Shown here piece by piece: positions 8,712 to 40,147 of a stretch of DNA of 64,000 nucleotides. The DNA is from Saccharospirillum mangrovi (GTDB lineage Bacteria; Pseudomonadota; Gammaproteobacteria; Pseudomonadales; Natronospirillaceae), in contig NZ_CP031415.1 of assembly GCF_003367315.1 (NCBI RefSeq), forward strand, positions 2,540,001 to 2,604,000, read 5' to 3'. The notes below the pieces were generated by a model, which had not been told where the DNA came from, made no database searches, and worked only from the letters and a program-made list of their open reading frames with translations. Every line of letters starts with the position of its first letter. Position 1 is the first letter of the stretch. A program made the position numbers and the translations under genes.

Positions 8712-8998
8712 GGCAAAACGTCCTGTTTGGAAAGAGGCTGCCAGCATAGCAAAGCGGGCCCAACCGGCATCGGTCAGAAGTCAGCAACACAGCCAATCCG
8801 GCGATACCCAAACCGACATCAAGAAGTTATTGCCCTGTCACGAAAAATCGCTAGGGTGAAGTCTGGTCGCAAAAGCTGACCAGTCGTTCAACACACTGAA
8901 ACCAGTTGTCGATGTTCGGCGGTTCCGTTTGGGTCAGGCCAAAACGGAGGAACGTCAGGGATTCAACCGTTCAACGCACCACAACCCGAGGGAACCCC

Positions 8999-11545
8999 AT
9001 GAAGACCCAACTGCCGATACTGGCGCTGACAACGGTGCTGGTCAGCACCGCCGCTCAGGCCGATCTGATTTTCAGCGAGTACATCGAAGGCTCGTCGAAC
9101 AACAAAGCACTGGAATTGACCAACACCGGCGCCAGCGCCGTCGATCTGTCCGAATACCGCATCGAACTCTATTCCAACGGCAATCTGAACGTGCAATCCG
9201 GGCTCAACCTGAGCGGCACTCTGGCCGCCAGCGACGACTATGTGATTGCCAACAGCAATGCCGTCAGCGCCATTCTGGATGTCGCCGACATCACCAGCGC
9301 GGTGACCAATTTCAACGGCAACGACGCCCTGGTGCTCAAACACAATGGCGTGGTCGTGGATCGCATCGGTCAGGTCGGTAACGCCGACTACTACGGCGGT
9401 GAAGTCACGCTGGTGCGCAAAGCCGGCATCACCCAGGGCGATCCGCAATACGACACCGCCTTTGACCCGGCCGAACAATGGGACAGCTACCCGCAAAACA
9501 CCTTCGCCTATCTGGGCGACGCTGGCACCGACAACGGTGACGGCGGCGACCCGACACTGGCGCAATGCGGCGACGCCATGACGTTGATTTCCGCCATTCA
9601 GGGCAGCGGTTCAAGCTCGCCGTTAATCGGTCAGAGCGTCGCCATCGAAGCCATCGTCGTCGCCGAACTGCAGGGCAGTAACGAGATGAGCGGCTTCTTT
9701 GTGCAGGAAGAAAACGCCGATGCCGACGGCGACGCCAGCACCTCAGAAGGCCTGTTTATTTACGCCAGCACACCAATGGTGTCGGTCGGCGACAAGGTCG
9801 TCGTCAACGGCCAGGTCGACGAATACTTCGGGCTGACGCAATTGAACCAGATTGCCGGTATCGAGATTTGCGCCAGCGGCCAGACGCTGCCCAGCGCGGC
9901 CGGTCTGAGCCTGCCACTGGCCGAGCTGAACGATCTGGAAGCGGTGGAAGGCATGCGCGTCAGCTTCAACCAGATTCTGACCGTGAACGAGGTCTACCAA
10001 CTCGGCCGCTACGGCGAATTCATGATCGGCAACGGCCGTCGCTATATCCCGACTGAAGTCGCCGCGCCGGGTGCACCAGCCATCGCCGTTGCCGAGGCCA
10101 ATGCCTTGAATGCGCTGCTGGTCGAAGACGGCATCAGCAGTCAGAACCCCGATCCGCTGATTTTCCCGGCGCCGGGTCTGTCGGCGTACAACAGCCTGCG
10201 CATCGGCGACACCCTGCCCGGCCTGACCGGCGTGCTGAACTACGGCTTCGGCGCTTACAAAGTGATTCCGACGGTCACGCCGACCTTCCTCGGCACCAAC
10301 CCGCGCACGCTGGAACCGACCGCCACCGTCGGCGCCAACCTGCGTCTGGCCAGCTTCAACGTGCTCAATTATTTCAACGGTGACGGCCTCGGCGGCGGCT
10401 TCCCGACCGACCGTGGCGCCGAAACGCCGCTGGAACTGGAACGCCAGCAGGCCAAGCTGATTGCCGCGCTGGAAGCCTTGGATGCCGACGTCATCGGCCT
10501 GATGGAAATTGAAAACGACGGCTTCGGCGCCACCAGCGCCATCGCCCAGTTGACCGAAGCGCTGAACGCCACCCAGATTCCCGGCGAGGAATACGATTTC
10601 GTCGCCCCGGGCGTCAGCCAGATTGGCACCGATGCCATTGCCGTTGGCCTGCTGTATCGGCCGGAAGTGGTTTCGCCGGTTAACATGGCGCGCATTCTCG
10701 ACAGCAGCAATTCACCGCTGGACGACGAAGGCGAGCCGCTGTTCATCGACGATCTGAACCGGCCGGCGCTGGCGCAAAGTTTCGAACACGCCGCCAGTGG
10801 CGACCGCTTCACCGTGGTGGTCAACCACTTCAAGTCGAAGGGCAACGGCAACTGCGCCGACTTCGACGACTGTGAGTCCAGTGACCTGCAAGGCGCCTAC
10901 AACGGTGCCCGCACCGCCGCAGCCCAAGCCATGGTCGCCTGGCTCGCCGGCAACCCGACCGGCGTTGCCGATGCCGACGTACTGATCATGGGCGACCTGA
11001 ACGCCTATTCCATGGAAGACCCGGTGCAGACATTGGCCGACGGCGGTTACCACTCACTGAAAGCCAACGGCGAATACTCCTACGTCTTTGACGGCGCCAG
11101 CGGCAACCTCGACCACGCTCTGGCAAGCGCCAGCCTGGCCGCCAAAGTGCTGGATGTGCAGGACTGGCACATCAACACCGACGAACCGCTGGCGCTGGAT
11201 TACAACACCAACTTCAAGTCCGCCGGCCAGATTGAAAGCTTCTACGCGCCGACGCCCTATCGCTCGTCCGACCACGACCCGGTGGTGATCGATCTGGCGA
11301 TGAACGCGCCGCCCGTGGCGCACTTCAAGGTGTACAAGATTCTGTTCTGGTACCTGTTCATCAGCGACAGCCACGACCCGGACGGTTACCTCACCGCCCA
11401 GGATTGGCGGATTGGCAACCTGACCTTCAGTGGCGATTGGAAACTGCTGTCCGTCAGCCAGGTGAAACGCCAGCACAGCCGTGACGTCACCCTGACCGTC
11501 ACCGATAACGACGGCGCGACCGACAGCCGCACCAAACGGCTGTAA
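8999..11545 (+). CDS. ExeM/NucH-type extracellular endonuclease with lamin-tail domain
   Basis: An 848-residue secreted nuclease. A signal peptide (MKTQLPILALTTVLVSTAAQA) leads directly into a lamin-tail domain (LIFSEYIEGSSNNKALELTN). A middle OB-fold-like region follows. Then comes an endonuclease/exonuclease/phosphatase domain with ASFNVLNYFNGDG, IGLMEIENDG, VVNHFKSKGNG, IMGDLNAYSMEDP and SSDHDPVV, which supply the metal and catalytic residues. The C-terminal about 90 residues look like a PKD/Ig-type module (DSHDPDGYLTAQDWR). ExeM in Shewanella degrades extracellular DNA for nutrition and biofilm remodelling. Start chosen for the GAGGGAA site and the signal peptide. A 250-bp upstream gap contains one isolated CTGTCAC half-site but no convincing Pho box. 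Confidence 0.93.
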   Translation: MKTQLPILALTTVLVSTAAQADLIFSEYIEGSSNNKALELTNTGASAVDLSEYRIELYSNGNLNVQSGLNLSGTLAASDDYVIANSNAVSAILDVADITSAVTNFNGNDALVLKHNGVVVDRIGQVGNADYYGGEVTLVRKAGITQGDPQYDTAFDPAEQWDSYPQNTFAYLGDAGTDNGDGGDPTLAQCGDAMTLISAIQGSGSSSPLIGQSVAIEAIVVAELQGSNEMSGFFVQEENADADGDASTSEGLFIYASTPMVSVGDKVVVNGQVDEYFGLTQLNQIAGIEICASGQTLPSAAGLSLPLAELNDLEAVEGMRVSFNQILTVNEVYQLGRYGEFMIGNGRRYIPTEVAAPGAPAIAVAEANALNALLVEDGISSQNPDPLIFPAPGLSAYNSLRIGDTLPGLTGVLNYGFGAYKVIPTVTPTFLGTNPRTLEPTATVGANLRLASFNVLNYFNGDGLGGGFPTDRGAETPLELERQQAKLIAALEALDADVIGLMEIENDGFGATSAIAQLTEALNATQIPGEEYDFVAPGVSQIGTDAIAVGLLYRPEVVSPVNMARILDSSNSPLDDEGEPLFIDDLNRPALAQSFEHAASGDRFTVVVNHFKSKGNGNCADFDDCESSDLQGAYNGARTAAAQAMVAWLAGNPTGVADADVLIMGDLNAYSMEDPVQTLADGGYHSLKANGEYSYVFDGASGNLDHALASASLAAKVLDVQDWHINTDEPLALDYNTNFKSAGQIESFYAPTPYRSSDHDPVVIDLAMNAPPVAHFKVYKILFWYLFISDSHDPDGYLTAQDWRIGNLTFSGDWKLLSVSQVKRQHSRDVTLTVTDNDGATDSRTKRL

Positions 11546-11567: not shown

Positions 11568-11594
11568 AAGGGCTGCCACTGGCAGCCCTTTTTT
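11568..11594 (+). terminator. Rho-independent terminator after the ExeM-type gene
   Basis: Stem AAGGGCTGCC-ACT-GGCAGCCCTT followed by four more T. Confidence 0.92.
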
Positions 11595-11603
11595 ATGACG
11601 AAA

Positions 11604-11643
11604 TTGTCACCAAAGCGTCACGTCATTGTCGTCCTGCTGTCAC
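11604..11643 (+). promoter_or_regulatory. PhoB box array, left copy
   Basis: Four 7-mers lie at exact 11-bp spacing: TTGTCAC-caaa-GCGTCAC-gtca-TTGTCGT-cctg-CTGTCAC. This matches the known PhoB box design (CTGTCAT repeats, 4-bp spacers). It lies upstream of a truncated copy of the plcP start and, further on, of the chemotaxis transducer gene. Confidence 0.78.
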
Positions 11644-11650
11644 CCAGCCT

Positions 11651-11752
11651 GCCTTGCCCTGACTCTGCCATGGGAGACTGAGCCATGACCCAACGTCGCG
11701 TACGCGCTGTGTTCATTTCCGATATTCACCTCGCCAACCCCAACAGCCAGGT
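11651..11752 (+). repeat. 102-bp direct repeat, left copy (plcP ribosome-binding site and first codons)
   Basis: Base-for-base identical to 14229-14330. It contains the GGGAGACTGAGCC leader, the ATG and codons 1-22 of the downstream metallophosphoesterase gene, plus the first two bases of the next codon. Upstream of the identical block the copies remain recognisably related but diverged. Downstream the left copy runs into unrelated AT-rich DNA. Confidence 0.95.
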
Positions 11753-11759
11753 CGAATGA
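11685..11759 (+). pseudogene. Truncated 5' copy of the plcP-like gene
   Basis: Reads MTQRRVRAVFISDIHLANPNSQVE and then stop. The first 23 residues equal the N-terminus of the intact gene at 14263. After the repeat ends, the frame runs into TGA. It is a remnant created by insertion of the following segment and still carries a Pho box and ribosome-binding site. Confidence 0.9.
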
Positions 11760-12093
11760 TTGCCGAACTCATAATTGAGTCTTACCTACATACTGGCAGC
11801 GATAAGCGGACCGTCGCTCAGGAAGCCAGCAAGATGAATACGCCTTGAATGCCCGCAAAAACGTGCTTCACTTTTAAATCAGACGATAGACCCTCTGCCA
11901 TTAGCCTGATGAGGGTAAAAGTTATTCTTGGTGACGAATTAGCCACCACAAAAGCTCGCACATCAATTTATGTGAACGCAAGTTAGGTTACCGAGTGTTA
12001 TTAAGAACGACCCGAAGGCGCATAAAGACACACCTCTTTGCAGCTGATCTTGATGACTTAAAAGTAAACAAGCCCCACATAAAGGTTACTAAC
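11760..12093. other. Non-coding AT-rich stretch before the chemotaxis gene
   Basis: No convincing ORF. A weak hairpin ACCCTC...GAGGGT occurs at 11890-11916 without a T-tail. A GTTAGGT heptamer lies at 11982. No clear promoter was found, so transcription could come from the left Pho-box promoter or from an unrecognised internal one. Confidence 0.5.
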
Positions 12094-13938
12094 ATGTTAA
12101 AAAACCTGTTAGCAAAAATATCAGGTGGTAAGCAAATCACTATCGCCAAAGATGATTGGGTCAATGCTCAAGGTCAACTCGACGCATTAACTCGTTCACA
12201 AGCCATCATTGAGTTTGACTTACATGGCAATATTTTAATGGCCAATGACAACTTCTTGAACGCCTTAGGTTATTCGTTAGAAGAAGTTAAAGGCCAACAC
12301 CACAGCATTTTTGTCGATAACGCCTACCGTAATAGCCAAGCATACAAGGATTTTTGGGCCAGACTACGCAATGGTGAATTTCAAAGTGGTGAGTACTGTC
12401 GCTACTCGAAAAACGGTCAGGCAGTTTGGATTGAGGCTAGCTACAATCCTATTTTTGATGCCAACAAAAAACCCTACAAAATCGTAAAATTTGCCAGTGA
12501 TATCACCGCGAAGAAACTGCAAAATAGCGATTATGAAAGTCAACTAGAAGCCATATCCAAATCTCAAGCGGTCATCTCATTTAAACTGGATGGCACCATA
12601 CTTTCGGCAAATGACAATTTCTTAAACGCGCTTGGCTATACGCTCAATGAAGTGCAAGGTAAGCATCATCGTTTGTTTGTCGATTCCGAATACCAAAAAT
12701 CTGACGAGTATCGCAACTTCTGGGATAGACTGGCTAAGGGCGAACATTTTGTTGGTCGTTTTCCACGCGTTCATAAAAGCGGTAAAGTCATTTGGATACA
12801 AGCCAACTATAGCCCTATTTGTGACCCAACCGGTACGCCTTATAAAGTAGTGAAATTCGCCACGGATATTACGGCTGAAGTCGAAGCCGAACAACAGCTT
12901 CAACTGACCGTTAGCCAGGTGAACTCGGCCATTGATGCCGCGGTTAATAATGACCTTACCCAACGAGTGGCAACGGCAGACAAATCCGACATGATGCTCA
13001 GTATCTCAGAAGGCGTAAACTCCCTGCTTGATACCATGACAGAGATCATCATCAATATTAAAAATGCATCCGATGCTGTGTATAACGGTGCTCGTGAAAT
13101 CTCCAAAGGCAACACAGACCTTTCTAACCGCACTGAGCAACAAGCTTCTAGTCTGGAAGAAACAGCGTCTAGTTTGGAGGAGCTAACCACTACTGTTCGC
13201 CAAAATGCAGACAATGCCAAAGAGGCTAACAACTTGGCATCCAATGCAGTAGCAATCGCCTTGGATGGAGGTCACTTAATAGAAAACGTGGTGAAAACCA
13301 TGGACTCCATCAATGAATCCTCACAAAAAATTGCGGATATCATTGGCATGATTGATGGAATTGCTTTTCAAACCAATATCCTAGCACTTAACGCTGCGGT
13401 TGAGGCTGCTCGAGCGGGCGAACAAGGGCGAGGCTTTGCGGTTGTTGCATCGGAGGTAAGAACCTTAGCGCAACGCTCAGCGAATGCGGCAAAAAACATT
13501 AAAGATCTCATCTCCGAGTCAGCGGAGAAAATCAACAATGGTAATGAGCTGGTCAATAAATCCGGTGATACCATGCGAGAGGTCGTGACTGCGATCAAGC
13601 AGGTCAATGATATTATGACTGAGATCGCCAGCGCGTCTGCAGAACAATCAACCGGGTTGGATGAAATAGATAAGGCCGTCAGCCAAATGGATGAAATGAC
13701 TCAACAAAACGCCGCGCTTGTTGAAGAAGCTGCAGCGGCCTCTGAAAATCTATTAAGCCAAGCAGATCTATTAACCAATAATGTAAACCAATTTGCACTG
13801 ACCGAGAGCAATCATACTTCTCACAGCATTAAACCCATAGCGCATACAAACGCCAAAAAATCATCACCTAAACATGCTTCTGTGCACCCATTAACGTCCA
13901 ACGCTATCGCGATTAACAGGCCAAAACCGTCACTGTAA
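12094..13938 (+). CDS. Cytoplasmic methyl-accepting chemotaxis protein with two PAS domains (BdlA-like)
   Basis: A 614-residue chemotaxis transducer without membrane segments. Two tandem PAS/PAC modules (about 30-145 and 150-265) each contain the repeated pattern [11 protein letters not shown]...EV.G.HH..FVD and end in [10 protein letters not shown] or [15 protein letters not shown]-like linker ([17 protein letters not shown]) follows. Then comes a signalling domain with the conserved hairpin tip [20 protein letters not shown] and [20 protein letters not shown], which binds CheA/CheW. The layout equals BdlA of Pseudomonas aeruginosa, a biofilm-dispersal sensor, and related redox/energy sensors. 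No CheB/CheR pentapeptide tail is obvious. Start 12094 is preferred over an upstream in-frame GTG at 11995 because of AAAGG before it. Codon use is foreign to the neighbourhood. Confidence 0.92.
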
Positions 13939-14176
13939 CCTCAGCTCGATAATGACGAGGATAGTTGGGTGAATTTTTAAATAGCATGAAATCGATTTTT
14001 GGGCAGAGGCGATGGCCTACAACACTGACTACAAGTCCGCGCCTCAAGTGACGTGTTTTTATGCCCTTACACTTGCCTGTCCGCAGACCAAAATCGCGTC
14101 AATCTACAACTAAGCATGCCGCCCCGCACCTACCTCACGGACATAAGCCCGGCGAATACTGGCATAGATGTCACCG
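13939..14176. other. Non-coding region after the chemotaxis gene
   Basis: About 240 bp without a supported gene, repeat or terminator. Base composition drifts from AT-rich toward that of the chromosome in its right half. Confidence 0.5.
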
Positions 14177-14216
14177 TATTCATCAAAGCGTCATGATGTT
14201 GTCACCCTAGCTTCAT
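14177..14216 (+). promoter_or_regulatory. PhoB box array, right copy (plcP promoter)
   Basis: Four 7-mers at exact 11-bp period: TATTCAT-caaa-GCGTCAT-gatg-TTGTCAC-ccta-GCTTCAT. They lie about 45 bp before the plcP start. They are homologous to the left array at 11604-11643 but diverged, while the spacing is kept. Confidence 0.75.
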
Positions 14217-14228
14217 CCGCCCTGCCTA

Positions 14229-14330
14229 GCCTTGCCCTGACTCTGCCATGGGAGACTGAGCCATGACCCAACGTCGCGTACGCGCTGTGTTCATTTCCGA
14301 TATTCACCTCGCCAACCCCAACAGCCAGGT
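14229..14330 (+). repeat. 102-bp direct repeat, right copy
   Basis: Identical to 11651-11752. It provides the functional ribosome-binding site and first 22 codons of the intact metallophosphoesterase gene. Confidence 0.95.
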
Positions 14331-15063
14331 GGATTTGCTGGCCGACTTTCTGAACAACACCGACACCGACTACCTCTACTTGCTCGGCGACATCGTCGAC
14401 CTGTGGAAGCTCAGCACCCGCAAAGGCCGCTGGCACAAACACCACGAATCGATCCTCAAACTGATTCTGGCGAAAGCCAAAGCCGGCACCGAAGTGGTGT
14501 ACGTGCCTGGCAACCACGATCCGTTTTTCCGCCACTTTGCCGACACCCATCTCGGCCCGGTGCGCGTTGAACACGAAGCCATTCACACCGCTGCCAGCGG
14601 CGAGCGTTACTTGCTGCTGCACGGCGACCGCTTCGATGACGACATCTACTGCGGCCATTTCTGGTGGCACATTGGCGAATGGCTGTACGAAACCGTGGTC
14701 ACGCTGAACCGCCATTTGAACCGACTGCGTTCGTGGTTGGGCAAATCGTACTGGTCGCTGCCTGGCGCGTTGAAAATGCGCTCGAAAAAAGCCCGCGCTT
14801 ACATCGAAAGCTTTGAAGACAAGGTGATCAGCTACGCCCGCGAACAAGGCGTTCAAGGCGTGGTGTGCGGTCACATTCATCAAAGCAAACTGCGCATCGA
14901 CGACGGCTTCGTTTACGCCAACGACGGTGACTGGGTAGAAAGCTGCTCAGCGCTGCTGGAGCATCAGGACGGCAGCTTGGAATTGCTCGAAGTCCCGCAC
15001 GCTCAGACCGGCACGCATCTGCATCCGTCGCCGAGCTGGCGCGCACCGGCGGCTCACAGCTGA
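14263..15063 (+). CDS. plcP: PlcP-like metallophosphoesterase (LpxH superfamily), phosphate-starvation lipid remodelling
   Basis: A 266-residue calcineurin-fold hydrolase of the LpxH/COG2908 superfamily. Metal-binding motifs are SDIHL (13-17), LLGDIVDLWKL, VPGNHDPFF, LLHGDRFDDD and GHIHQ. The WSLPGALKMRSKKARAYIESFE and YANDGDWVESCSALLEH segments resemble what I recall of PlcP. PlcP is the phospholipase C that removes phospholipid head groups under phosphate limitation so diacylglycerol can feed phosphorus-free lipids. The Pho-box array upstream supports this over a housekeeping LpxH role. A glycosyltransferase partner (Agt) is not adjacent. The 5' end is duplicated at 11685. Symbol is inferred by family and regulation. 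Confidence 0.75.
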   Translation: MTQRRVRAVFISDIHLANPNSQVDLLADFLNNTDTDYLYLLGDIVDLWKLSTRKGRWHKHHESILKLILAKAKAGTEVVYVPGNHDPFFRHFADTHLGPVRVEHEAIHTAASGERYLLLHGDRFDDDIYCGHFWWHIGEWLYETVVTLNRHLNRLRSWLGKSYWSLPGALKMRSKKARAYIESFEDKVISYAREQGVQGVVCGHIHQSKLRIDDGFVYANDGDWVESCSALLEHQDGSLELLEVPHAQTGTHLHPSPSWRAPAAHS

Positions 15064-26662: not shown

Positions 26663-27658
26663 ATGCCGAAAAGACCCTTAATCATCATGATTGTCATCGT
26701 CGCTGTGGTCGGCCTGAGTGTGTGGTGGACGCAAAGCCCCAATGCCGCCAGCAGCGGTCTTACGCTGCACGGCAACGTCGATATCCGTCAGGTATCGCTC
26801 GCTTTCGATGGCAGCGGCCGCATCGCCGAATTGCGCGTCGAAGAAGGCGACCATGTTCAGCAGGGCGACCTGATGGGCGTGCTCGACACCAGCACGCTGG
26901 CGCTGCAAGCCGATCAGGCCCGGGCCGAAGTGGAAGTGCGTCGCCAAAGCCTGCTGCAATTGCAGCGCGGCACCCGGCCGGAAGAAATCGCCCGTGCCCG
27001 GGCGCAACTGGCGTCGGCCGAAGCCTCGGCGGCTCAGGCCGAACGGGAACTGTCGCGCTCGGTTCGCCTGCAAGCGTCCGACAGCGGCGCGGCCAGCGCC
27101 CAGAATGTCGATCTGGCTCGCGCCAATGCCCAAATCGCCAACGCCAAAGTCGACGAATTACGCGCCGTGCTGGCCCAGGCCGAAGCCGGCCCGCGAGCCG
27201 AGGAAGTGGCCGCCGCCCAAGCCGCACTGAGCGCCGCCGAAGCCCAACTGGCGCTGCTGCAACACCAGATCGACCAAGGCCAACTGCGCGCCCCGGTAGA
27301 CGCCGTAGTGCGTTCGCGCCTGCACGAACCGGGCGACATTGTGACGCCGCAATCGGCCGTCTTCGCACTGGCGCTGACCGAACCCAAATGGATACGGGTG
27401 TACATCGACGAACCGAATCTCAGCCTTATTCAACCGGGCATGCCCGCCGACGTTCTGACCGACGATGCGTTGCCGGCACTGTCTGGCCGGGTTGGGTACA
27501 TCTCTTCAGTCGCCGAATTCACACCGAAGCCGGTGCAGACCACCGAACTGCGCACCAGCCTGGTGTACGAAGTGCGGGTGGTGGTGGACGACCCGGATGA
27601 CCGCCTGCGCCTGGGTCAACCGGCCAGCGTGCAATTGCAGGCCCGGACTGAATCATGA
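26663..27658 (+). CDS. ybhG: HlyD/EmrA-type periplasmic adaptor protein (YbhG-like)
   Basis: A 331-residue membrane fusion protein: N-terminal membrane anchor (LIIMIVIVAVVGLSVWW), the lipoyl half-motifs VSLAFDGSGRIAELRVEEGD and RAPVDAVVRSRLHEPGDIV, and a long Ala/Glu-rich coiled-coil hairpin between (about 75-210). It would link the inner-membrane ABC exporter to an outer-membrane channel. It overlaps the next gene by ATGA and begins a four-gene operon controlled by the divergent TetR regulator. Confidence 0.88.
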   Translation: MPKRPLIIMIVIVAVVGLSVWWTQSPNAASSGLTLHGNVDIRQVSLAFDGSGRIAELRVEEGDHVQQGDLMGVLDTSTLALQADQARAEVEVRRQSLLQLQRGTRPEEIARARAQLASAEASAAQAERELSRSVRLQASDSGAASAQNVDLARANAQIANAKVDELRAVLAQAEAGPRAEEVAAAQAALSAAEAQLALLQHQIDQGQLRAPVDAVVRSRLHEPGDIVTPQSAVFALALTEPKWIRVYIDEPNLSLIQPGMPADVLTDDALPALSGRVGYISSVAEFTPKPVQTTELRTSLVYEVRVVVDDPDDRLRLGQPASVQLQARTES

Positions 27659-29433
27659 ATCACGCCGGCGTGCTGGTGGCCGCCGATCACCTGGGCAAAA
27701 CCTTCGCCAATAAAAACGGCGACGACACCATTGCGGTCCAGGACATTTCGCTGACGGTTCACGCCGGCGAACTGACCGCGCTGGTCGGCCCGGACGGCGC
27801 CGGTAAAACCACCTTGATGCGCATGATGGCCGGCTTGCTGAAACCGGATCGCGGCCAATTGACGATGTTTGATCTCGACATCACCACCCAGACACAAGCC
27901 ATTCAAAACCGCATCAGCTACATGCCGCAGCGGTTTGGCCTGTATGAAGATTTGAGCGTCCAGGAAAACCTCGACCTCTACGCCGACCTGCACGGCGTGC
28001 CCGCCGAGGTACGCGAAGAACGCTTCGCGCGCATGCTCGCCATGACCGACATGGCACGCTTCACCGACCGCACCGCCGGCAACCTCTCCGGCGGCATGAA
28101 ACAAAAACTGGGCCTCGCCTGCACCTTAGTGCGCTCACCCGATCTGCTGCTGTTGGACGAGCCCAGCGTAGGTGTGGACCCGCTGTCGCGCCGCGATCTG
28201 TGGAAAATCATCCTGCAATTGGTCGAGAGCGAACAATTGAGCGTCGTGGTCAGCACCGCCTACATGGACGAAGCCGAACGCTGCGCCAACGTCATGGTGA
28301 TGAACCAGGGCCAACTGCTGGCATCCGGCTCGCCCGATTCGCTGCGGCACCGGGCCAAAGGCCTGACTTACACCGTCACGCCCGCCGCCGGCACGCCCGC
28401 GCGCGAACTGCAAGCCCAACTGATTCGCGCCACCGATCACATCATCGACGCTGTACCCCAAGGCGGCGACGTTCGCTTTATCCGCCGCGCCGACGTCAAT
28501 CTTGCGCAATTGAAACCCTTGCTTGGAAACCTGGCTGTAGAGCCGCGCCCGGAAGAACTCGAAGACGCCTTTATGATGCTGCTGCGCCAGCACGAAACCG
28601 AGGAAAGCCGCGCCGCCGAACTGGATTTCCAAGCCACAACAGCGGCAGAACAAATACCTGCAACCGACGCCGAGCGCCCCATCATTGAAGTGCGCGATCT
28701 GGTGCGGAAATTTGGCGATTTCACCGCCGTCGCCAGCACTTCATTCAGCGTCCGTCGCGGCGAAATTTTCGGTTTACTCGGCCCCAACGGCGCCGGCAAA
28801 ACCACCACCTTTCGCATGCTGTGCGGTCTGCTGCCGGCGACCAGCGGGCATTTGGAAGTCGCCGGCCAAAACCTGCGCACAGCGCGCGCCAAGGCGCGTG
28901 GTCACATCGGTTATGTGGCGCAAAAATTTTCTTTGTACGGCAATTTATCGGTGCGCGAAAACCTGACATTTTTCGGTGGCAGTTACGGTTTGGCGGGCAA
29001 ACATTTGCGGCGGCGCGTCACCGAATCGCTGCAACAATTTGAACTCGACGCCAAGGTTCGCAGCGGCCTGATGCCGGCGGGTTTTAAACAGCGCCTGGCG
29101 ATGGCGGCAGCGTTGATTCACCAACCCGACATTCTGTTTCTGGACGAACCGACCAGCGGCATCGATCCGCTGGCGCGGCGCAGTTTTTGGCGCACCATCA
29201 CGCAATTGGCGAACAGCGGCGTCACCATCATCGTCACCACGCACTTTATGGAAGAAGCCGAATACTGCGACCGCATCGCCATTCAGGACGCCGGCAAAGT
29301 GCTGGCGCTGGGCACGCCACGCGAGGTGCGTCAGCAAGGCGGTGATGCCGGCTCGAGCGACATGAACAGCGCCTTCATCGCCATTGTTGAAAACAGCCGC
29401 GCTCAACTCGCGCACGCCGAGGTGGACGCATGA
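27655..29433 (+). CDS. ybhF: Fused double ABC transporter ATPase (YbhF-like)
   Basis: 592 residues with two ABC ATPase domains. The first has Walker A GPDGAGKTT, signature LSGGMKQKL and Walker B LLLLDEPSVGVDP. The second has GPNGAGKTT, a degenerate signature (MPAGFKQRLAMA) and LFLDEPTSGIDP. This double-ATPase layout is that of YbhF. It energises export through the two permeases that follow. The junctions on both sides are ATGA overlaps, so the four genes are translationally coupled. Confidence 0.92.
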   Translation: MNHAGVLVAADHLGKTFANKNGDDTIAVQDISLTVHAGELTALVGPDGAGKTTLMRMMAGLLKPDRGQLTMFDLDITTQTQAIQNRISYMPQRFGLYEDLSVQENLDLYADLHGVPAEVREERFARMLAMTDMARFTDRTAGNLSGGMKQKLGLACTLVRSPDLLLLDEPSVGVDPLSRRDLWKIILQLVESEQLSVVVSTAYMDEAERCANVMVMNQGQLLASGSPDSLRHRAKGLTYTVTPAAGTPARELQAQLIRATDHIIDAVPQGGDVRFIRRADVNLAQLKPLLGNLAVEPRPEELEDAFMMLLRQHETEESRAAELDFQATTAAEQIPATDAERPIIEVRDLVRKFGDFTAVASTSFSVRRGEIFGLLGPNGAGKTTTFRMLCGLLPATSGHLEVAGQNLRTARAKARGHIGYVAQKFSLYGNLSVRENLTFFGGSYGLAGKHLRRRVTESLQQFELDAKVRSGLMPAGFKQRLAMAAALIHQPDILFLDEPTSGIDPLARRSFWRTITQLANSGVTIIVTTHFMEEAEYCDRIAIQDAGKVLALGTPREVRQQGGDAGSSDMNSAFIAIVENSRAQLAHAEVDA

Positions 29434-30557
29434 ACGCCGGTTTCGTCACACGTCTGCAAGCCTTGGTGCGCAAAGAAAGCCGCCAGATGTTGCGCGACCG
29501 CAGCAATCTGTTCGTCGGCTTGCTGTTGCCGGTGGTGTTGATTCTGTTGTTCGGCTACGGCCTGTCATTCGATGTCACCGACGCCCGCGTCACCCTGGTG
29601 CTCGACGACACCTCGCCCACCGCACGCAACGCCGTTGCCGGCTTAACCGGCTCGGCCTATATCAGCCCCAGTTGGGCGGCCAGCATGCCCGAAGCGGAAG
29701 CGACGATGATCGCCGGCGACACCGACGCCATTCTGCGGGTGCCGAGCGATTTTTCAGCGCGCCTGGCGCAAGGCGACGCCCAACTGCAACTGATCCTCAA
29801 CGGCGTCGATTCCAACATGGCGACCGCCATTGAAGGCTATGTCGCCGGCGCGTTGAACGTCAGCACGCAGCACCAATTGGATCGGCTCGGCAACCCCGTG
29901 CAACCCATCGCCCGCGTAGATATCGTGCAGCGCACCTGGTTCAACGAATCGGGCATCAGCACCTGGTATCTGGTGCCGGGTTTGATCGTGCTGGTGATGA
30001 CCTTGATCGGCGCGTTTCTAACGTCCTTGTTAGTCGCACGCGAATGGGAGCGCGGCACGCTGGAATCGCTGTTCGTCACGCCGGTGCGGCCGCTGGAACT
30101 GGTGCTGGCCAAGCTGGCGCCGTACATCGTCATCGGCGCCATCGACCTCAGCCTGTGTCTGCTCGCCAGCAAATTTCTGTTTCACGTGCCGATGCGCGGT
30201 TCGCTGGGCATCATTATTTTTGCGTCACTGCTGTATCTGATTGTGTCGTTGCTGATGGGGCTGCTGATTTCCGCCGTCACCAAAAATCAGTTCGCCGCCA
30301 GCCAGTTGGCGTTGCTGGTGAGTTTTATGCCGGCGCTGATGTTGTCGGGTTTCGTGTTCGACCTGCGCAACGTGCCCTGGGTGATTCAATTGATCAGCAA
30401 GCTGTTGCCGGCGTCGCATTTTATGGGTCTGATCAAAACCCTGTTTATGGCCGGCAATGTCTGGCACGACATCCTGCGCGACTGCGGCATCCTGACGCTC
30501 TACGCCCTGGTGCTGATCGCCGCCACCCGACGCGCCCTGCGCAAGACTTTGGATTGA
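29430..30557 (+). CDS. ybhS: ABC-2 type permease (YbhS-like)
   Basis: 375 residues. An N-terminal membrane helix (LFVGLLLPVVLILLFGYGLS) is followed by a large periplasmic domain (about 45-175). A cluster of five helices then includes LLVAREWERGTLESLFVTPV, the ABC-2 permease signature. It overlaps the ATPase gene and is followed three bases later by the second permease. Confidence 0.9.
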   Translation: MNAGFVTRLQALVRKESRQMLRDRSNLFVGLLLPVVLILLFGYGLSFDVTDARVTLVLDDTSPTARNAVAGLTGSAYISPSWAASMPEAEATMIAGDTDAILRVPSDFSARLAQGDAQLQLILNGVDSNMATAIEGYVAGALNVSTQHQLDRLGNPVQPIARVDIVQRTWFNESGISTWYLVPGLIVLVMTLIGAFLTSLLVAREWERGTLESLFVTPVRPLELVLAKLAPYIVIGAIDLSLCLLASKFLFHVPMRGSLGIIIFASLLYLIVSLLMGLLISAVTKNQFAASQLALLVSFMPALMLSGFVFDLRNVPWVIQLISKLLPASHFMGLIKTLFMAGNVWHDILRDCGILTLYALVLIAATRRALRKTLD

Positions 30558-30559
30558 CC

Positions 30560-31672
30560 ATGCCCAGTTGGATTCAAACCGTCGTGCAAACCCTCGCCCT
30601 GTTCCGCAAAGAATTGCTGACCCTGGTGAAAGATCCGTCCAGTCGGGCGCTGCTGGTGATGCCGGCCATTTTGCAATCGCTGCTGTTCGGCTACGGCGCA
30701 ACGTACGATCTCACCAACGTGCCGTACGCCGTGCTCGACCAAAGCCACGGCGAAGCCTCGACCGAATTGCTGGCAAGCCTCGACGGCACTGGCGTGTTTC
30801 ACCGCATCGCAACGCTGACCTCAAGCGACCAGATTGCCGGCGTCATCGACAGCGGCGACGCCTTGCTGGCGTTGTCCATTCCAGCCAATTTCGATGCGCT
30901 GTTGGCGTCGCATCAGAGCGCGCCGTTGCAGGTCATATTGGACGGCCGCAATTCGTCCACGGCGGCTCTGGCGTCGGCTTACGTCACTGCGCTGGTGTCG
31001 GAATACAACGCCGGTCTGGGCCAGACATCGCCGCTGACCATTGAACGCCGCGCCTGGTTCAACCCCAATCTGGCGTCGCGCTGGAACATCATGCCGGCGC
31101 TGATTGCCTCGTTAAGCATGATCCAAACCTTACTACTGGCGGCGCTGTCGGTAGCGCGCGAACGCGAACAGGGCACCTTCGATCAACTCCTGGTCACGCC
31201 GTTAACGCCGCTGCAAATTCTGATCGGCAAAGCGCTGCCATCGATTTTGGCGGGCATGGTGCAATCGACCGTCATTCTGCTGATCATCCTGTTCTGGTTT
31301 CAGATTCCGATGAACGGCTCGTTCTGGTTGCTGTATCTGGGTTTGCTCAGCTTCACCACAGCGGCAGTGGGCATCGGCCTATCGATCTCGGCGCTGTCGC
31401 TGACCATGCAACAAGCCATGCTCTACACCTTCATGCTGGTGATGCCGCTGACGTTGCTCTCGGGATTGCTGACGCCGATCCGCAACATGCCCGAGGTGTT
31501 GCAGATTGCCACCTACGTCAACCCATTGCGTTTTGGTATCGATCTGGTGCGGCGCGTCTACCTTGAAGGCGCGACCTTCAGCGAGGTGGCGTTCAACTTT
31601 GTGCCCTTGCTCAGCATCGCGGCGGTCACCCTGCCGATGGCCGCCTGGCTGTTCCGGCACCGGTTATCCTGA
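30560..31672 (+). CDS. ybhR: ABC-2 type permease (YbhR-like)
   Basis: 370 residues with the same layout as its upstream neighbour: helix, periplasmic domain, then five helices with SVAREREQGTFDQLLVTPLT. The start at ATG 30560 (MPSWIQTVVQTLALFRKELL) is chosen because it begins at the first conserved segment; the frame is open far upstream but runs antisense-like through ybhS. The two permeases probably form the heterodimeric channel. Last gene of the operon. Confidence 0.9.
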   Translation: MPSWIQTVVQTLALFRKELLTLVKDPSSRALLVMPAILQSLLFGYGATYDLTNVPYAVLDQSHGEASTELLASLDGTGVFHRIATLTSSDQIAGVIDSGDALLALSIPANFDALLASHQSAPLQVILDGRNSSTAALASAYVTALVSEYNAGLGQTSPLTIERRAWFNPNLASRWNIMPALIASLSMIQTLLLAALSVAREREQGTFDQLLVTPLTPLQILIGKALPSILAGMVQSTVILLIILFWFQIPMNGSFWLLYLGLLSFTTAAVGIGLSISALSLTMQQAMLYTFMLVMPLTLLSGLLTPIRNMPEVLQIATYVNPLRFGIDLVRRVYLEGATFSEVAFNFVPLLSIAAVTLPMAAWLFRHRLS

Positions 31673-35622: not shown

Positions 35623-36090
35623 TTATTCCTCGTCCGACAACGCCCGGCCTTCCAGTTTTACCAAAAATGCACGAATCGAATCGCTGACGTTTTCTTTCTG
35701 ATTGCTGCGACCGTTAAACAACACAATGCGCGCTTTACCATCGGTCGTAATCGTCTGCTGCCGCTCACTGAACACCGCGTATTCGTGCACAAAACCATGT
35801 TCCTGAATACTCAACGTACGGGCACCAACAAAGATGCGATCCGGATACGTCAGCGGCCGCCGGTAACGACACTCCGTGTGCCCAACCACCGGCCCGACGC
35901 CATTCGTTTTCATCTCATCAAACACCGGCGTGCGTTCGAAATACGCAATGCGGGCGTTTTCGAAGTAGCGGAAATAAACGACGTTGTTGACGTGGTTAAA
36001 AGCGTCCATATCACCCCATTGAACGGGTAGTTCGATGATGACGGGGTAGGTGTTTTTGAAGTCTTCCAGCATTTTGGCGTCCATTTGCAA
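35623..36090 (-). CDS. Acyl-CoA thioesterase (4HBT, YbgC-like hot-dog fold)
   Basis: 155 residues of the 4-hydroxybenzoyl-CoA thioesterase family. The catalytic Asp lies in the WGDMDAFNHVNNVVYFRYFE segment near residue 27, followed by ARIAYFE and VVGHTECRYRRPLTY. It hydrolyses acyl-CoA thioesters; chain length cannot be read. Monocistronic, converging on the first MocR gene. Confidence 0.87.
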   Translation of the reverse strand: MQMDAKMLEDFKNTYPVIIELPVQWGDMDAFNHVNNVVYFRYFENARIAYFERTPVFDEMKTNGVGPVVGHTECRYRRPLTYPDRIFVGARTLSIQEHGFVHEYAVFSERQQTITTDGKARIVLFNGRSNQKENVSDSIRAFLVKLEGRALSDEE

Positions 36091-36185
36091 CCGTTAATCC
36101 GAAGCTTACCGAAACCGGCTCGCACCCTACATATTTAAAGAAAAACCCTCTTCCGCCCAAAATCAGACGCCATTCACTCTTTAAG

Positions 36186-36214
36186 GTGTCAATTTTTTGG
36201 CGTTTTCATATAAT
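36186..36214 (+). promoter_or_regulatory. Sigma-70-like promoter before the large lipoprotein gene
   Basis: A perfect -10 TATAAT lies 17 bp after a GTGTCA element (4 of 6 matches to TTGACA). The predicted start of RNA is about 110 nt before the gene, leaving a GC-rich leader. Confidence 0.6.
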
Positions 36215-36228
36215 CCGCTCACGCCAAC

Positions 36229-36298
36229 CTGTGGGACGACCAGGGAATAGCGGCCCATACCCACAGCCGGCGAATACCGGGAGTTCGACCTCAACCCG
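36229..36298 (+). other. Structured 5' leader of the lipoprotein mRNA
   Basis: Contains the long-range pair CTGTGGG (36229-36235) / CCCACAG (36260-36266) and a following CCGGG / CCCGG pair (36277-36298). No known riboswitch consensus was recognised. Confidence 0.4.
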
Positions 36299-36332
36299 GC
36301 CTGAACATCATACGGATTGTGAAGAGGATCTT

Positions 36333-38321
36333 ATGAAGCACCTTACCTTACCCCTTACCTTACCTTTAGCGGCATTACTGATGACGGCCGGGTGCACACC
36401 CGGCGACAGTGGCGGGTCCAACCCTGAAACCGGAGCCAAAATGACGCTCGAAGGACGCGTCGCCGATGGCTACCTGGTGGGCGCACTGGTTTGTCTGGAC
36501 CTGAACAACAACGCCAATTGTGACGACAACGAACCCGATACAATCACCCTCGCCGGCGGGCATTACCGCCTGGAAGACATCACCAGACAGCAATATGAAC
36601 AAGGCCAATTGCTGGTTGAAGTTTCCGTCAACGCTCAGGATGAAGACGACAACAGCTTCGTAACCCGGCCCTATAAATTAACCACACCCAAAGGCCATGA
36701 AGCCTTTGTATCCCCCATCACAACGCTGATTGCCCGAACCCTGCAACTCGACCCGAACCTGAGTGAGGCAGCGGCGCTTGAACGATACGCGCTGGCATTT
36801 GGTCAGGAAAACCCGGAAAACCTGCTCGAGGATTTTGTATCCAACAGCGAACAAGGTGACCCATCCGCCGAAAAACTGCACCGCATCGCCCAACTGGTTG
36901 CCGACGTAATGGGCGAAACCAAATTCAATCTGGAAGGTAATCTTCAAGCCGCCGGGGGAGATGCAGTACAGCAGGCAAACGCTGTTGAGTTAACGCTCAC
37001 ACGGGCCATCACCAGAAATACGGAAGAGAGCAATAACTTACGAAAACTGGTGCTGGCAGCATTAGAAAATGACGCCACTCAGCAACAGCTTTTGATCAAT
37101 GATCTCCGCTCAACACTGGAGGCCGATGCGTCTGTTGAACAGACCCAAATACAACTGAACCAACTGGCCTCCGATAACCTGACACCCGCTGAGATCACCA
37201 CACTGTTCCGACAGGGTTTTGGTGAACTGACGATCTTCCCAGCCAGCTGGTGCGAAGCTAACTCCAGCGTAGTGTGCTTTGAAACCTGGGAAGTCAGCAC
37301 ACCCGACAACAGCAATGCGCTCAGCGTATTGGAAACTTTTTATGAATTTGATCAAAACGGTAATCTCACCACTACTGAGGACGATGACGACTACGTGGAT
37401 GACTATGAAGATGTCATCTGGTTGCTGGATAACAACGACCAATTTGAGCGAGTGGAATACAGTGGCATCTGGCGCAAAAGCACCATCAATGAAGACGGCT
37501 CCTACAGCAGCCATACCGTTTACCTGAAGGAAATTCCGTCGACAGATCCAGCCAGCTGGACCCTGGCTAACATCCAACCCTTTGCCGAAAAAATCGATAC
37601 GTTAACGATACCCGTATCAATTCGGGAGAAGAGTGTTGCCGGCGAAACACTGGTTGATATTCTGGACCGAATGTCAGCCGATGAAAGCGGAATACTGGAA
37701 TCGGCAGCCACACCGTTCAACGCCAACCTGACCTTTCCTGACGATTCCGTTGGCTACTGGGTTCAGTTCACACAGACCGACAGTCAAACTCTGATAAGCC
37801 CTTACGATGATGTCATGGTACTCCCTGACAATAACGAATGTGATGACGTCACCTGCGATGTCACGTTTTCAGCGTTGGATGATCTGTTTACCCTGAACAA
37901 TACCAATCTTGGTATTGAAGGCTGGGGTTACTTAAACAATGCAGACGACCTTTACATTTATCAGATCAAGTTCAATCCGTCTGAGGCGGGTCAATCCAGT
38001 GGAACCGCTGCGTTAATTCGGTGGTATTACGAAGACTATGAGCCGGTAAAAGACGTCAATTTCGCAGGCCAACTCAAATGGCAGCGCCATGCCGATTGGC
38101 ATGGCAAAGAAGCGATTGTCATTGATCGCTTGCAGGCCTACGAGTACGGAATGGATGCGATTGCATTGGTCGATGTCGGCGATGCCGTTGACGAGCCGGT
38201 ATTGTGGGCTGTAATCGACGAAGCGACCGACTATGACAATGACTACCTGCTCAATGGCGTCGCTCTGAAAACATTGACTGAGCAGCTGACATCCTACTTC
38301 AGCACAGAACCGGCTAACTAA
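36333..38321 (+). CDS. Large hypothetical lipoprotein
   Basis: 662 residues with a lipoprotein signal (MKHLTLPLTLPLAALLMTAGC). After the Cys comes a Gly/Ser linker and a segment typical of secreted proteins that hold a carboxypeptidase-like or Ca-binding repeat (VADGYLVGALVCLDLNNNAN, then CDDNEPD). The remainder is acidic and hydrophilic, without a recognised family; the stretch near 395-420 is very rich in Asp. Start by GAAGAGGA and the signal peptide. Base composition is less GC-rich than the surrounding core genes. Confidence 0.75.
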   Translation: MKHLTLPLTLPLAALLMTAGCTPGDSGGSNPETGAKMTLEGRVADGYLVGALVCLDLNNNANCDDNEPDTITLAGGHYRLEDITRQQYEQGQLLVEVSVNAQDEDDNSFVTRPYKLTTPKGHEAFVSPITTLIARTLQLDPNLSEAAALERYALAFGQENPENLLEDFVSNSEQGDPSAEKLHRIAQLVADVMGETKFNLEGNLQAAGGDAVQQANAVELTLTRAITRNTEESNNLRKLVLAALENDATQQQLLINDLRSTLEADASVEQTQIQLNQLASDNLTPAEITTLFRQGFGELTIFPASWCEANSSVVCFETWEVSTPDNSNALSVLETFYEFDQNGNLTTTEDDDDYVDDYEDVIWLLDNNDQFERVEYSGIWRKSTINEDGSYSSHTVYLKEIPSTDPASWTLANIQPFAEKIDTLTIPVSIREKSVAGETLVDILDRMSADESGILESAATPFNANLTFPDDSVGYWVQFTQTDSQTLISPYDDVMVLPDNNECDDVTCDVTFSALDDLFTLNNTNLGIEGWGYLNNADDLYIYQIKFNPSEAGQSSGTAALIRWYYEDYEPVKDVNFAGQLKWQRHADWHGKEAIVIDRLQAYEYGMDAIALVDVGDAVDEPVLWAVIDEATDYDNDYLLNGVALKTLTEQLTSYFSTEPAN

Positions 38322-38340
38322 ACGCTCATTAACCAGGGGC

Positions 38341-38387
38341 AGGATCGGAGTTATCAATGCGCCTCGTGCTCATTTGACTCCGATCCT
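38341..38387. repeat. Long-loop inverted repeat
   Basis: AGGATCGGAGT and ACTCCGATCCT form a perfect 11-bp pair around 25 bases, between the lipoprotein and GST genes. There is no T-run, so it is not a classical terminator; it may slow transcription or be a remnant of an element. Confidence 0.55.
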
Positions 38388-38486
38388 CCATTGTATTGCT
38401 CACCCTGCTCTGATTGATCGGCCACACTGAATCGCTGTTGCCGATCTGCAAGGCCAAAGCGGTAATCGGACGCCAGCCAGGCGGCA

Positions 38487-39089
38487 TCAAGCCACGCCGT
38501 TGGCCACCCAGTCAGTAAAACCTTTTTGTGCCGCGCAGCGACGAAAATAAGCGTCGATATGGGCGAACCGGCCAATTTGACCGATGGACTCGTACCAGCG
38601 ATTCACCGACAGTGCCAATGCGATGTCGCAGACCCGAAATTGCGCGCCAGTCACAAAGTCTTTATCAGCCAATTGATCATTCAGCAGCGCTACCTTGTCA
38701 TTCCAGTTACGGACCGATTGTTCAATCAAATCAGCGTTCTGAAAATCGGGGTTATTTCGAACCCTGGCCTGGAACGCATACACCCAAGCGCTGTTAAATT
38801 CCGCGAGCTGCCAATCCAACCATTGATCAATCAGCGATCGCACAGTCGGTGTTGATGGGTACAGATCACTGTCTGGAAACCGTCTCGCCAGATACCGCAG
38901 AATGGCGTTCGATTCCCACAGGCTAAAATCACCATCCGTTAATACGGGCACCAGGCGGTTAGGGTTCAATGTCGCCAATGTTTGTACATCTGGCTGTTCG
39001 ATGTGCTGAAACGGACACTCCAGGATGTCCAGACACCAGAGAATTTTCCGGACATTAATGGACGTGCTTCTTCCCAATAGAGTCATCAT
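38487..39089 (-). CDS. Glutathione S-transferase family protein
   Basis: 200 residues: an N-terminal thioredoxin-like domain (LLGRSTSINVRKILWCLDIL) with the glutathione-binding LVPVLTDGDFSLWESNAILRYLAR segment, and an all-helical C-terminal domain. The catalytic residue is probably Ser in GRSTS. Substrate unknown. Monocistronic and divergent from the calcineurin-like lipoprotein gene. Confidence 0.87.
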   Translation of the reverse strand: MMTLLGRSTSINVRKILWCLDILECPFQHIEQPDVQTLATLNPNRLVPVLTDGDFSLWESNAILRYLARRFPDSDLYPSTPTVRSLIDQWLDWQLAEFNSAWVYAFQARVRNNPDFQNADLIEQSVRNWNDKVALLNDQLADKDFVTGAQFRVCDIALALSVNRWYESIGQIGRFAHIDAYFRRCAAQKGFTDWVANGVA

Positions 39090-39265
39090 ATCGAGGCCTC
39101 GCTGAAGAGTTTTATAAACGCCAGTGTTCGTATCAATCCCGGCCCATGGTTTCAGTTAATTGTGACAACACCGTTCAACGTGGAATCCACGCTCCAATAG
39201 CGATACGCTGCGATTTAGCTACATTCAAATTGAATATTCACTCATACGTCGTCGCAGGTCTGTCA

Positions 39266-40147
39266 TTGAAACCTATTGTTGTGTCTCTTTTATTCGTTAT
39301 GAGTGCCCTCAGTGCCTGTACCAGCAGCACGACCGAATGGGCAGAAAATACACCCGGCAATCTCCCTGACCAGTATCGAATCTGCGTCCTCGGTGACGCA
39401 GGCACTGGCAAAGCCGAGCAATATCAAGTCAAAGATGCGTTGTTGCACGAAGGTTGCGACGAACTGCGCATGGTGGGTGACGTGATTTACGAGAATGGCA
39501 TTACCTCAGCCGACGACCCACAACTGTACGATAAGTTTCTAACTCCCTATGCAGACCTGCTCAGTGATCGGCCGTTCTATATTGCAATGGGAAATCACGA
39601 TCACAAAGCCGACGATACTGCCTGGATCGACGTCGCTCAAACCCACGAAAATGTAATTTTCCCCAGCCAATATTATGCGACACGTCGCGGCGACCTGTGC
39701 TTTATCACCCTAGATACAGAAGCCAGCTACCTCGCTCAAGTCCGATGGGTGCACAACTTGGAACCCGCCATGTCTGACTGTGCATTGCGCATTGCTTTTG
39801 GTCACCACCCCTATTTCAGCTCCGGTCATCACGGGGACGCCAATCCGGGCATGAAGCTCTTCCTGCGCACCACAGTAATGGGGGATACGGACCTCTATAT
39901 TGCCGGTCACGATCATCAACTCAGCGACGAAGGCCAACTGGAAAATACCCGCTTATTAATCAGTGGCGCCGCGGGGAAACTCAGAAACCTGAAAGAAGTG
40001 CCCCGGGTTTGGGGTGTATCGCAACTGGGCTATTTGGTGCTGATTGTGCACCGCGATCCGGACTTACTGGAGTATCAGTTCAAGACGGTAGAGGAAGATG
40101 GACTGGCATCCATAGCCTTCCACGACACGATGGATTTCCAACGCTGA
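39266..40147 (+). CDS. Calcineurin-like metallophosphoesterase lipoprotein
   Basis: A secreted phosphoesterase. Motifs VLGDAGTGK, VGDVIYENG, MGNHDHK, FGHHPYFSSG and AGHDHQLS give the five metal-binding blocks of the purple acid phosphatase-like group. A lipobox (LSAC) follows KPIVVSLLFVMSA. I place the start at TTG 39266 so that the signal peptide is N-terminal. An ATG at 39146 in the same frame would add 40 residues that would block lipidation, and it has no ribosome-binding site. Substrate unknown; no Pho box seen nearby. Confidence 0.78.
   Translation: MKPIVVSLLFVMSALSACTSSTTEWAENTPGNLPDQYRICVLGDAGTGKAEQYQVKDALLHEGCDELRMVGDVIYENGITSADDPQLYDKFLTPYADLLSDRPFYIAMGNHDHKADDTAWIDVAQTHENVIFPSQYYATRRGDLCFITLDTEASYLAQVRWVHNLEPAMSDCALRIAFGHHPYFSSGHHGDANPGMKLFLRTTVMGDTDLYIAGHDHQLSDEGQLENTRLLISGAAGKLRNLKEVPRVWGVSQLGYLVLIVHRDPDLLEYQFKTVEEDGLASIAFHDTMDFQR

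Follow-up and report, generated by a model that had tools for sequence, protein, structure and literature searches.

Organization of the plcP locus

We analyzed a window of 64,000 nucleotides of the Saccharospirillum mangrovi genome, in which the start region of a predicted phosphoesterase gene, plcP, occurs twice (Table 1). The assignment to plcP is putative and draws on the Metallophos domain of the product, the Pho-box-like promoter and the name given in an earlier sequence-only reading; likeness to the PlcP of lipid remodelling under phosphate limitation consists, at this locus, in a Metallophos protein encoded behind a Pho-box-like promoter. Upstream lies nucH, for which the frame tested starts at 8993 and the longest open reading frame (ORF) at 8906. 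The gene is the native upstream neighbor of plcP in three congeners (G001, G003 and G005) and is present in a fourth (G004) as a second nucH-like copy. The terminator-like hairpin 3′ of nucH is statistically weak, since the scan of the region returned three such sites versus 3.0 in shuffled sequences.

The plcP leader and first codons form a direct repeat with identity at 102 of 102 positions, as the sequence-only reading had noticed. A repeat search returned a 105-nt pair (11651-11755 and 14229-14333, 99% identical) of which the first 102 bases are perfect; in the whole genome (3.69 Mb), the repeat exists in two copies only, both at the plcP locus. Just upstream, positions 11607-11661 and 14180-14234 form an adjoining pair with 71% identity. 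A Pho-box-like pattern matched twice in the 64 kb versus 0.03 matches expected, once upstream of each repeat copy, and TGTCA-type repeats with an 11-bp period are present in both arrays; the sequence-only reading had described these stretches as homologous but diverged. The plcP promoters of congeners contain a Pho-box-like array in the same register. The right copy leads into a complete plcP and the left one into a short truncated frame, so the target gene is indeed intact and restored by the right end, as had been proposed.

Between the copies, GC content falls to 0.41-0.47 (44% GC DNA) versus ~0.60 outside. The interval had been described as an AT-rich insert with a single double-PAS gene and no recombinase: the low GC content, the PAS and MCPsignal domains and the lack of any recombinase ORF were all borne out, but a cheW pseudogene and a 3′ remnant of nucH are present as well. 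An Rfam scan of the interval gave no credible structured RNA.

Table 1 Features of the plcP locus, in positions of the window
Feature	Position	Strand	Description
nucH	8993..11545	+	Secreted LTD-domain/exo-endonuclease-phosphatase protein; Pfam LTD 3.7e-15, Exo_endo_phos 3.4e-10
Terminator-like hairpin 3′ of nucH	11568..11590	+	Consensus scan; 10-pair stem and T run
Left Pho-box-like array (apparently native)	11606..11648	+	11-bp repeats of GTCRY; pattern match
Left repeat copy	11651..11752	+	102-bp perfect direct repeat
Truncated left plcP start	11685..11759	+	24 residues, then TGA
Window-specific spacer	11753..11826		Against plcP no better than shuffles
cheW pseudogene remnant	11827..11974	+	CheW residues 5-53; frameshift-tolerant comparison
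Receptor gene	12094..13938	+	Intact, horizontally acquired gene for a 614-aa soluble methyl-accepting chemotaxis protein with two PAS stretches; Pfam
nucH 3′ remnant	14009..14138	+	Decayed 3′ end of another nucH; alignment covers residues 734-777 (in G002, 723-777)
Right Pho-box-like array	14179..14221	+	Precedes intact plcP; pattern match, congener register
Right repeat copy	14229..14330	+	102-bp perfect direct repeat
Intact plcP (putative)	14263..15063	+	Pfam Metallophos phosphoesterase
Tract exchanged (window species/G002)	11837..14410	+	Left limit between 11651 and 11837; right limit around plcP codon 50

The receptor gene

Pfam identified two PAS stretches and an MCPsignal domain in the receptor, and no membrane segment was found in it. 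GC3 of the gene is 0.44 versus ~0.73 in the surrounding genes, a composition check that the sequence-only reading had suggested. Outside the sister species G002, its nearest relatives are receptors of Marinomonas che operons, with 67-70% amino acid identity. The composition of the receptor gene is foreign, and the gene was acquired horizontally. Two sources were considered and rejected: the genome's own che cluster, the receptor of which matches the C-terminal half only (59%) and the CheW of which scores lower than Marinomonas CheW against the remnant described below, and plasmids, which gave only partial signalling-domain matches, none covering 80% of the query.

Relatives of solved structure include a tandem-PAS sensor protein, MCP I and the aerotaxis receptor, and the receptor may accordingly sense redox state or oxygen. 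The architecture is likewise that of the BdlA-like soluble PAS-PAS chemoreceptors; the likeness lies in the domains only, the nearest relatives being che-operon receptors, and membership of the biofilm-dispersal group would be conjectural. A scan for a sigma-70 type promoter of the receptor gave none above chance. The receptor probably works with a host kinase; the window species and G002 each have a cheA-cheW-MCP-cheR-cheD cluster as well. A search of six genomes of the genus detected CheD in this pair of species but in none of the remaining four. On G000:C1, two CheD-bearing chemotaxis clusters (L166 and L167) lie near 131979 and 179841.

Gene remnants on either side of the receptor

Spacer DNA was identified by frameshift-tolerant protein-DNA comparison, with significance estimated from dinucleotide shuffles. 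In G002, the spacer that precedes the receptor gene proved to be a cheW pseudogene spanning CheW residues 3-144 (score 145, z = 28). In the window species, the remnant is shorter (score 58, z = 8.1), the rest having been deleted, and Pfam gave no match for it alone. The G002 score of 145 was obtained against Marinomonas CheW; against the host's own CheW, the same remnant scores 87. Gene order in Marinomonas is cheA-cheW-MCP-cheR-cheD, with cheW ending 98 bp upstream of the receptor gene. The insert shares with this type of operon (cheA-cheW-MCP-cheR-cheD-cheB) a cheW located directly 5′ of the receptor but differs from it in that, beside the one intact gene, that of the receptor, cheW remains only as a pseudogene, with cheA, cheR, cheD and cheB missing.

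To the right of the receptor, the nucH 3′ remnant (z = 11.4 in the window, 8.5 in G002) occupies the position expected from gene order upstream of plcP. With this remnant ahead of the right Pho array and plcP, the second copy is a nucH′-Pho-plcP segment of congeneric DNA, which accords with the earlier suggestion of DNA from a related strain. Remnant and repeat together indicate that a segment extending from around nucH codon 723 to plcP codon 24 lies on both sides of the cheW-receptor DNA. Two further identifications were rejected: the left spacer as decayed plcP, which scored no better than shuffles at the DNA level (protein level, z = -0.6), and cheR or other che DNA to the right of the receptor, for which there was no signal.

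Comparison with congeners

As the sequence-only reading had proposed, relatives were compared for an empty site. G001, G003, G004 and G005 have nucH and plcP without the receptor, separated by spacers of 156-603 bp. Besides the window species, only G002 contains the receptor at the plcP locus, in the same place and arrangement. Synonymous divergence (dS) of the receptor between these two is 0.225, while flanking genes mostly range from 0.7 to 1.5 (~0.95); plcP as a whole has a dS of 0.61. As fractions of synonymous differences, the corresponding values are 0.125 for the receptor, 0.40 for nucH and 0.43 for cysE, and nucleotide identity to G002 is 83-98% inside the tract and 75-81% outside. Within plcP, divergence changes abruptly: synonymous differences number 4 across the 48 comparable codons of codons 1-50 and 65 across the 192 of codons 51-260 (p = 2.9e-4), with low divergence also for codons 25-50 (p = 0.0098). 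No such step at codon 50 was seen against the four genomes used as controls (G004, G016, G003 and G001).

The low receptor dS and the plcP step near codon 50 indicate that the block was exchanged after the species split. By this comparison, the exchanged tract begins with the cheW remnant and ends around plcP codon 50; nucH, the left promoter and the larger part of plcP are native to each genome. The promoters agree with this division: between the window species and G002, the right-hand ones are 96% alike and the left-hand ones 81%. The sequence-only reading had favored a recent insertion and had named the identical arrangement, with the same divergence, in distant relatives as the mark of an old, fixed duplication. 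Half of that mark was found, as the arrangement is shared with a relative, but at a different divergence from that of its flanks; what is recent is an exchange after the split.

Further variation was recorded nearby. The plcP-cysE gap contains a 536-aa gene without a Pfam match in G002 (L033, 2757-4367), a transglutaminase-like gene in G001, G004 and G005, and nothing in the window species or G003. Window positions 26663-31672 encode an HlyD-like protein, a double-ATPase ABC protein and two permeases, and these 5 kb are missing at the syntenic place in G002. Positions 36000-40000, where GC content is lower (0.48-0.54), contain a second metallophosphatase-like ORF and a large ORF resembling lipoproteins and are largely unmatched in G002. 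A gene with internal repeats at positions 1-2256 has a dS of 0.43 to G002, below that of its neighbors.

In G004 (L151, 8110-13123), a complete nucH is followed by 4.7 kb of 35-43% GC DNA carrying three minus-strand genes without a Pfam match. A repeat brackets this insert: on its far side, 144 bp match the 3′ end of nucH at 75%, and the second nucH-like gene and plcP follow. Taken with the window insert, it means that the nucH-plcP locus has received additive insertions at least twice.

Origin of the arrangement

We consider it probable that a Marinomonas-type cargo entered by additive RecA-type integration on nucH-plcP homology and was then transferred between species through the plcP arm. 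A piece carrying Marinomonas-type cheW and the PAS-PAS receptor gene would first have been joined to nucH-3′-Pho-plcP DNA of a congener. It would then have integrated additively into a resident nucH-Pho-plcP locus by homologous (RecA-type) recombination without a recombinase, giving the order nucH, Pho, truncated plcP start, cheW, receptor, nucH 3′ remnant, Pho and complete plcP. The duplicated stretch from nucH to the plcP start would be the mark of a one-sided event, either a single crossover of a circularized fragment or homology-facilitated illegitimate recombination (HFIR). Subsequently, cheW and the extra nucH piece would have decayed, with the receptor gene and plcP remaining intact. 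Finally, the whole tract would have moved between the sister species by homologous recombination. This step requires a linear tract that extends to codon 50; its right-hand exchange would lie within plcP close to that codon and its left-hand one at the duplicated plcP start, where a crossover or conversion would have left the 102-bp identity. Neither a recombinase nor an attachment site is needed. The layout of the locus, the gene remnants, the empty sites in congeners, the tract exchanged between species and its right breakpoint are seen in the sequences. We infer, rather than observe, the nature of the first step (single crossover or HFIR), the direction of transfer and the conversion behind the 102-bp identity.

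Three points weigh against this course of events. The 102-bp identity requires an extra step, conversion or crossover at the repeat. Over the 102 bp, 4 differences separate the right copy of the window species from that of G002. Within G002, where the left copy is shorter, the two copies are 87% alike over their shared part, and over that part the identity of the window copies to the functional G002 copy is 97%. Because of these last two values, we read the 102-bp tract as the place of the crossover or conversion. Second, a donor in which the cheW-receptor-nucH′ junction is still intact was not found. Third, the left junctions differ, which leaves room for independent integrations from a common source.

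Two separate acquisitions, in which each species obtained the cargo from an unsampled third congener, would explain why the left junction falls at plcP codon 24 in the window species and around codon 10 in G002, with different spacers, and why each left promoter looks native. We nevertheless regard this as unlikely: the cheW remnant is collinear in the two species, with stretches shared at 83%, and where it differs, deletions that arose later in a pseudogene would account for this. Less probable again is a single old insertion in the common ancestor, inherited vertically, with the block kept similar through constraint alone. Gene order, the truncated left start and the decayed pieces of cheW and nucH are common to both species, as such descent would predict; however, synonymous sites of the receptor are around fourfold less diverged than those of its neighbors, identity to G002 is 83-89% in non-coding parts of the block versus 75% in the adjacent nucH coding DNA, and constraint does not explain a plcP step that other species pairs do not have.

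Integration by homology followed by interspecies transfer is a known kind of gene gain, here clear and dissectable, and not a new mobile element. The locus is an unusually readable natural case of a foreign gene added without a mobile element, in which the old neighbor cheW, the homologous anchor nucH′-plcP and the boundary of the later interspecies exchange are still visible.

Expression and excision

The left Pho array is oriented toward the receptor gene, which starts ~465 bp downstream. A consensus scan found no terminator-like site on the same strand between the two; several stop codons lie in this interval, and the spacer is longer in G002, where the left array is kept with one mismatch. 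From this promoter geometry, Pho control of the receptor is possible, and the locus offers a simple test of whether a nutrient-stress promoter can capture a sensory gene through such an event.

That the receptor forms a reversible, recombinase-free cassette conferring Pho-driven, phosphate-dependent chemotaxis seems to us highly doubtful. If it did, RecA recombination between the 102-bp repeats would free a 2,578-bp circle with the receptor gene, a Pho promoter and the plcP start, leaving a clean, functional plcP behind. Such a circle could re-enter the plcP start of any congener, and the integrated receptor gene, read from the left Pho promoter, would make chemotaxis phosphate dependent.

Comparison with known modes of gene acquisition

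A site-specific integrative element using the plcP start as its attachment site, as the sequence-only reading had offered, would yield perfect direct repeats around the cargo and a target that regains promoter and start on integration, but is very improbable: neither the insert nor the G002 locus has an integrase or recombinase ORF, the interspecies low-divergence tract runs past the repeat to plcP codon 50, the diverged and unequal G002 copies are not an att repeat conserved in all carriers, the flanking material consists of decayed host-type nucH and foreign cheW rather than element ends, and no other gene or cargo bounded by exactly this repeat was seen among 22 family genomes.

HFIR, proposed for one-sided module insertion at Vibrio T6SS loci (PMC5361080), likewise joins one end through a homologous arm and the other without homology and requires no recombinase. 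Here, plcP, Pho and nucH′ form the right arm, and for cheW at the left end no homology to the target was detected. HFIR typically removes a comparable length of recipient DNA (PMC3240628), whereas nucH and plcP are both complete and an extra nucH′-plcP segment is present; recipient DNA is duplicated, not lost. As no recipient deletion is seen, a single crossover is the better model of the first step than classical HFIR.

Single-crossover (Campbell-type) integration of a circularized fragment likewise duplicates part of the homologous locus around the cargo, and E. coli integrants of this kind have duplications of 109-950 bp (PMC3240628). At the plcP locus, the duplicated length before decay would be ~600 bp, the stretch from the nucH 3′ end to the plcP start flanks the cargo on each side in the same order, and the target has been restored. 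If the circle ended at plcP codon 24, this by itself would leave the low divergence of codons 25-50 unexplained, since native-level divergence sets in from codon ~50 rather than codon 24; the later exchange may have overwritten these codons.
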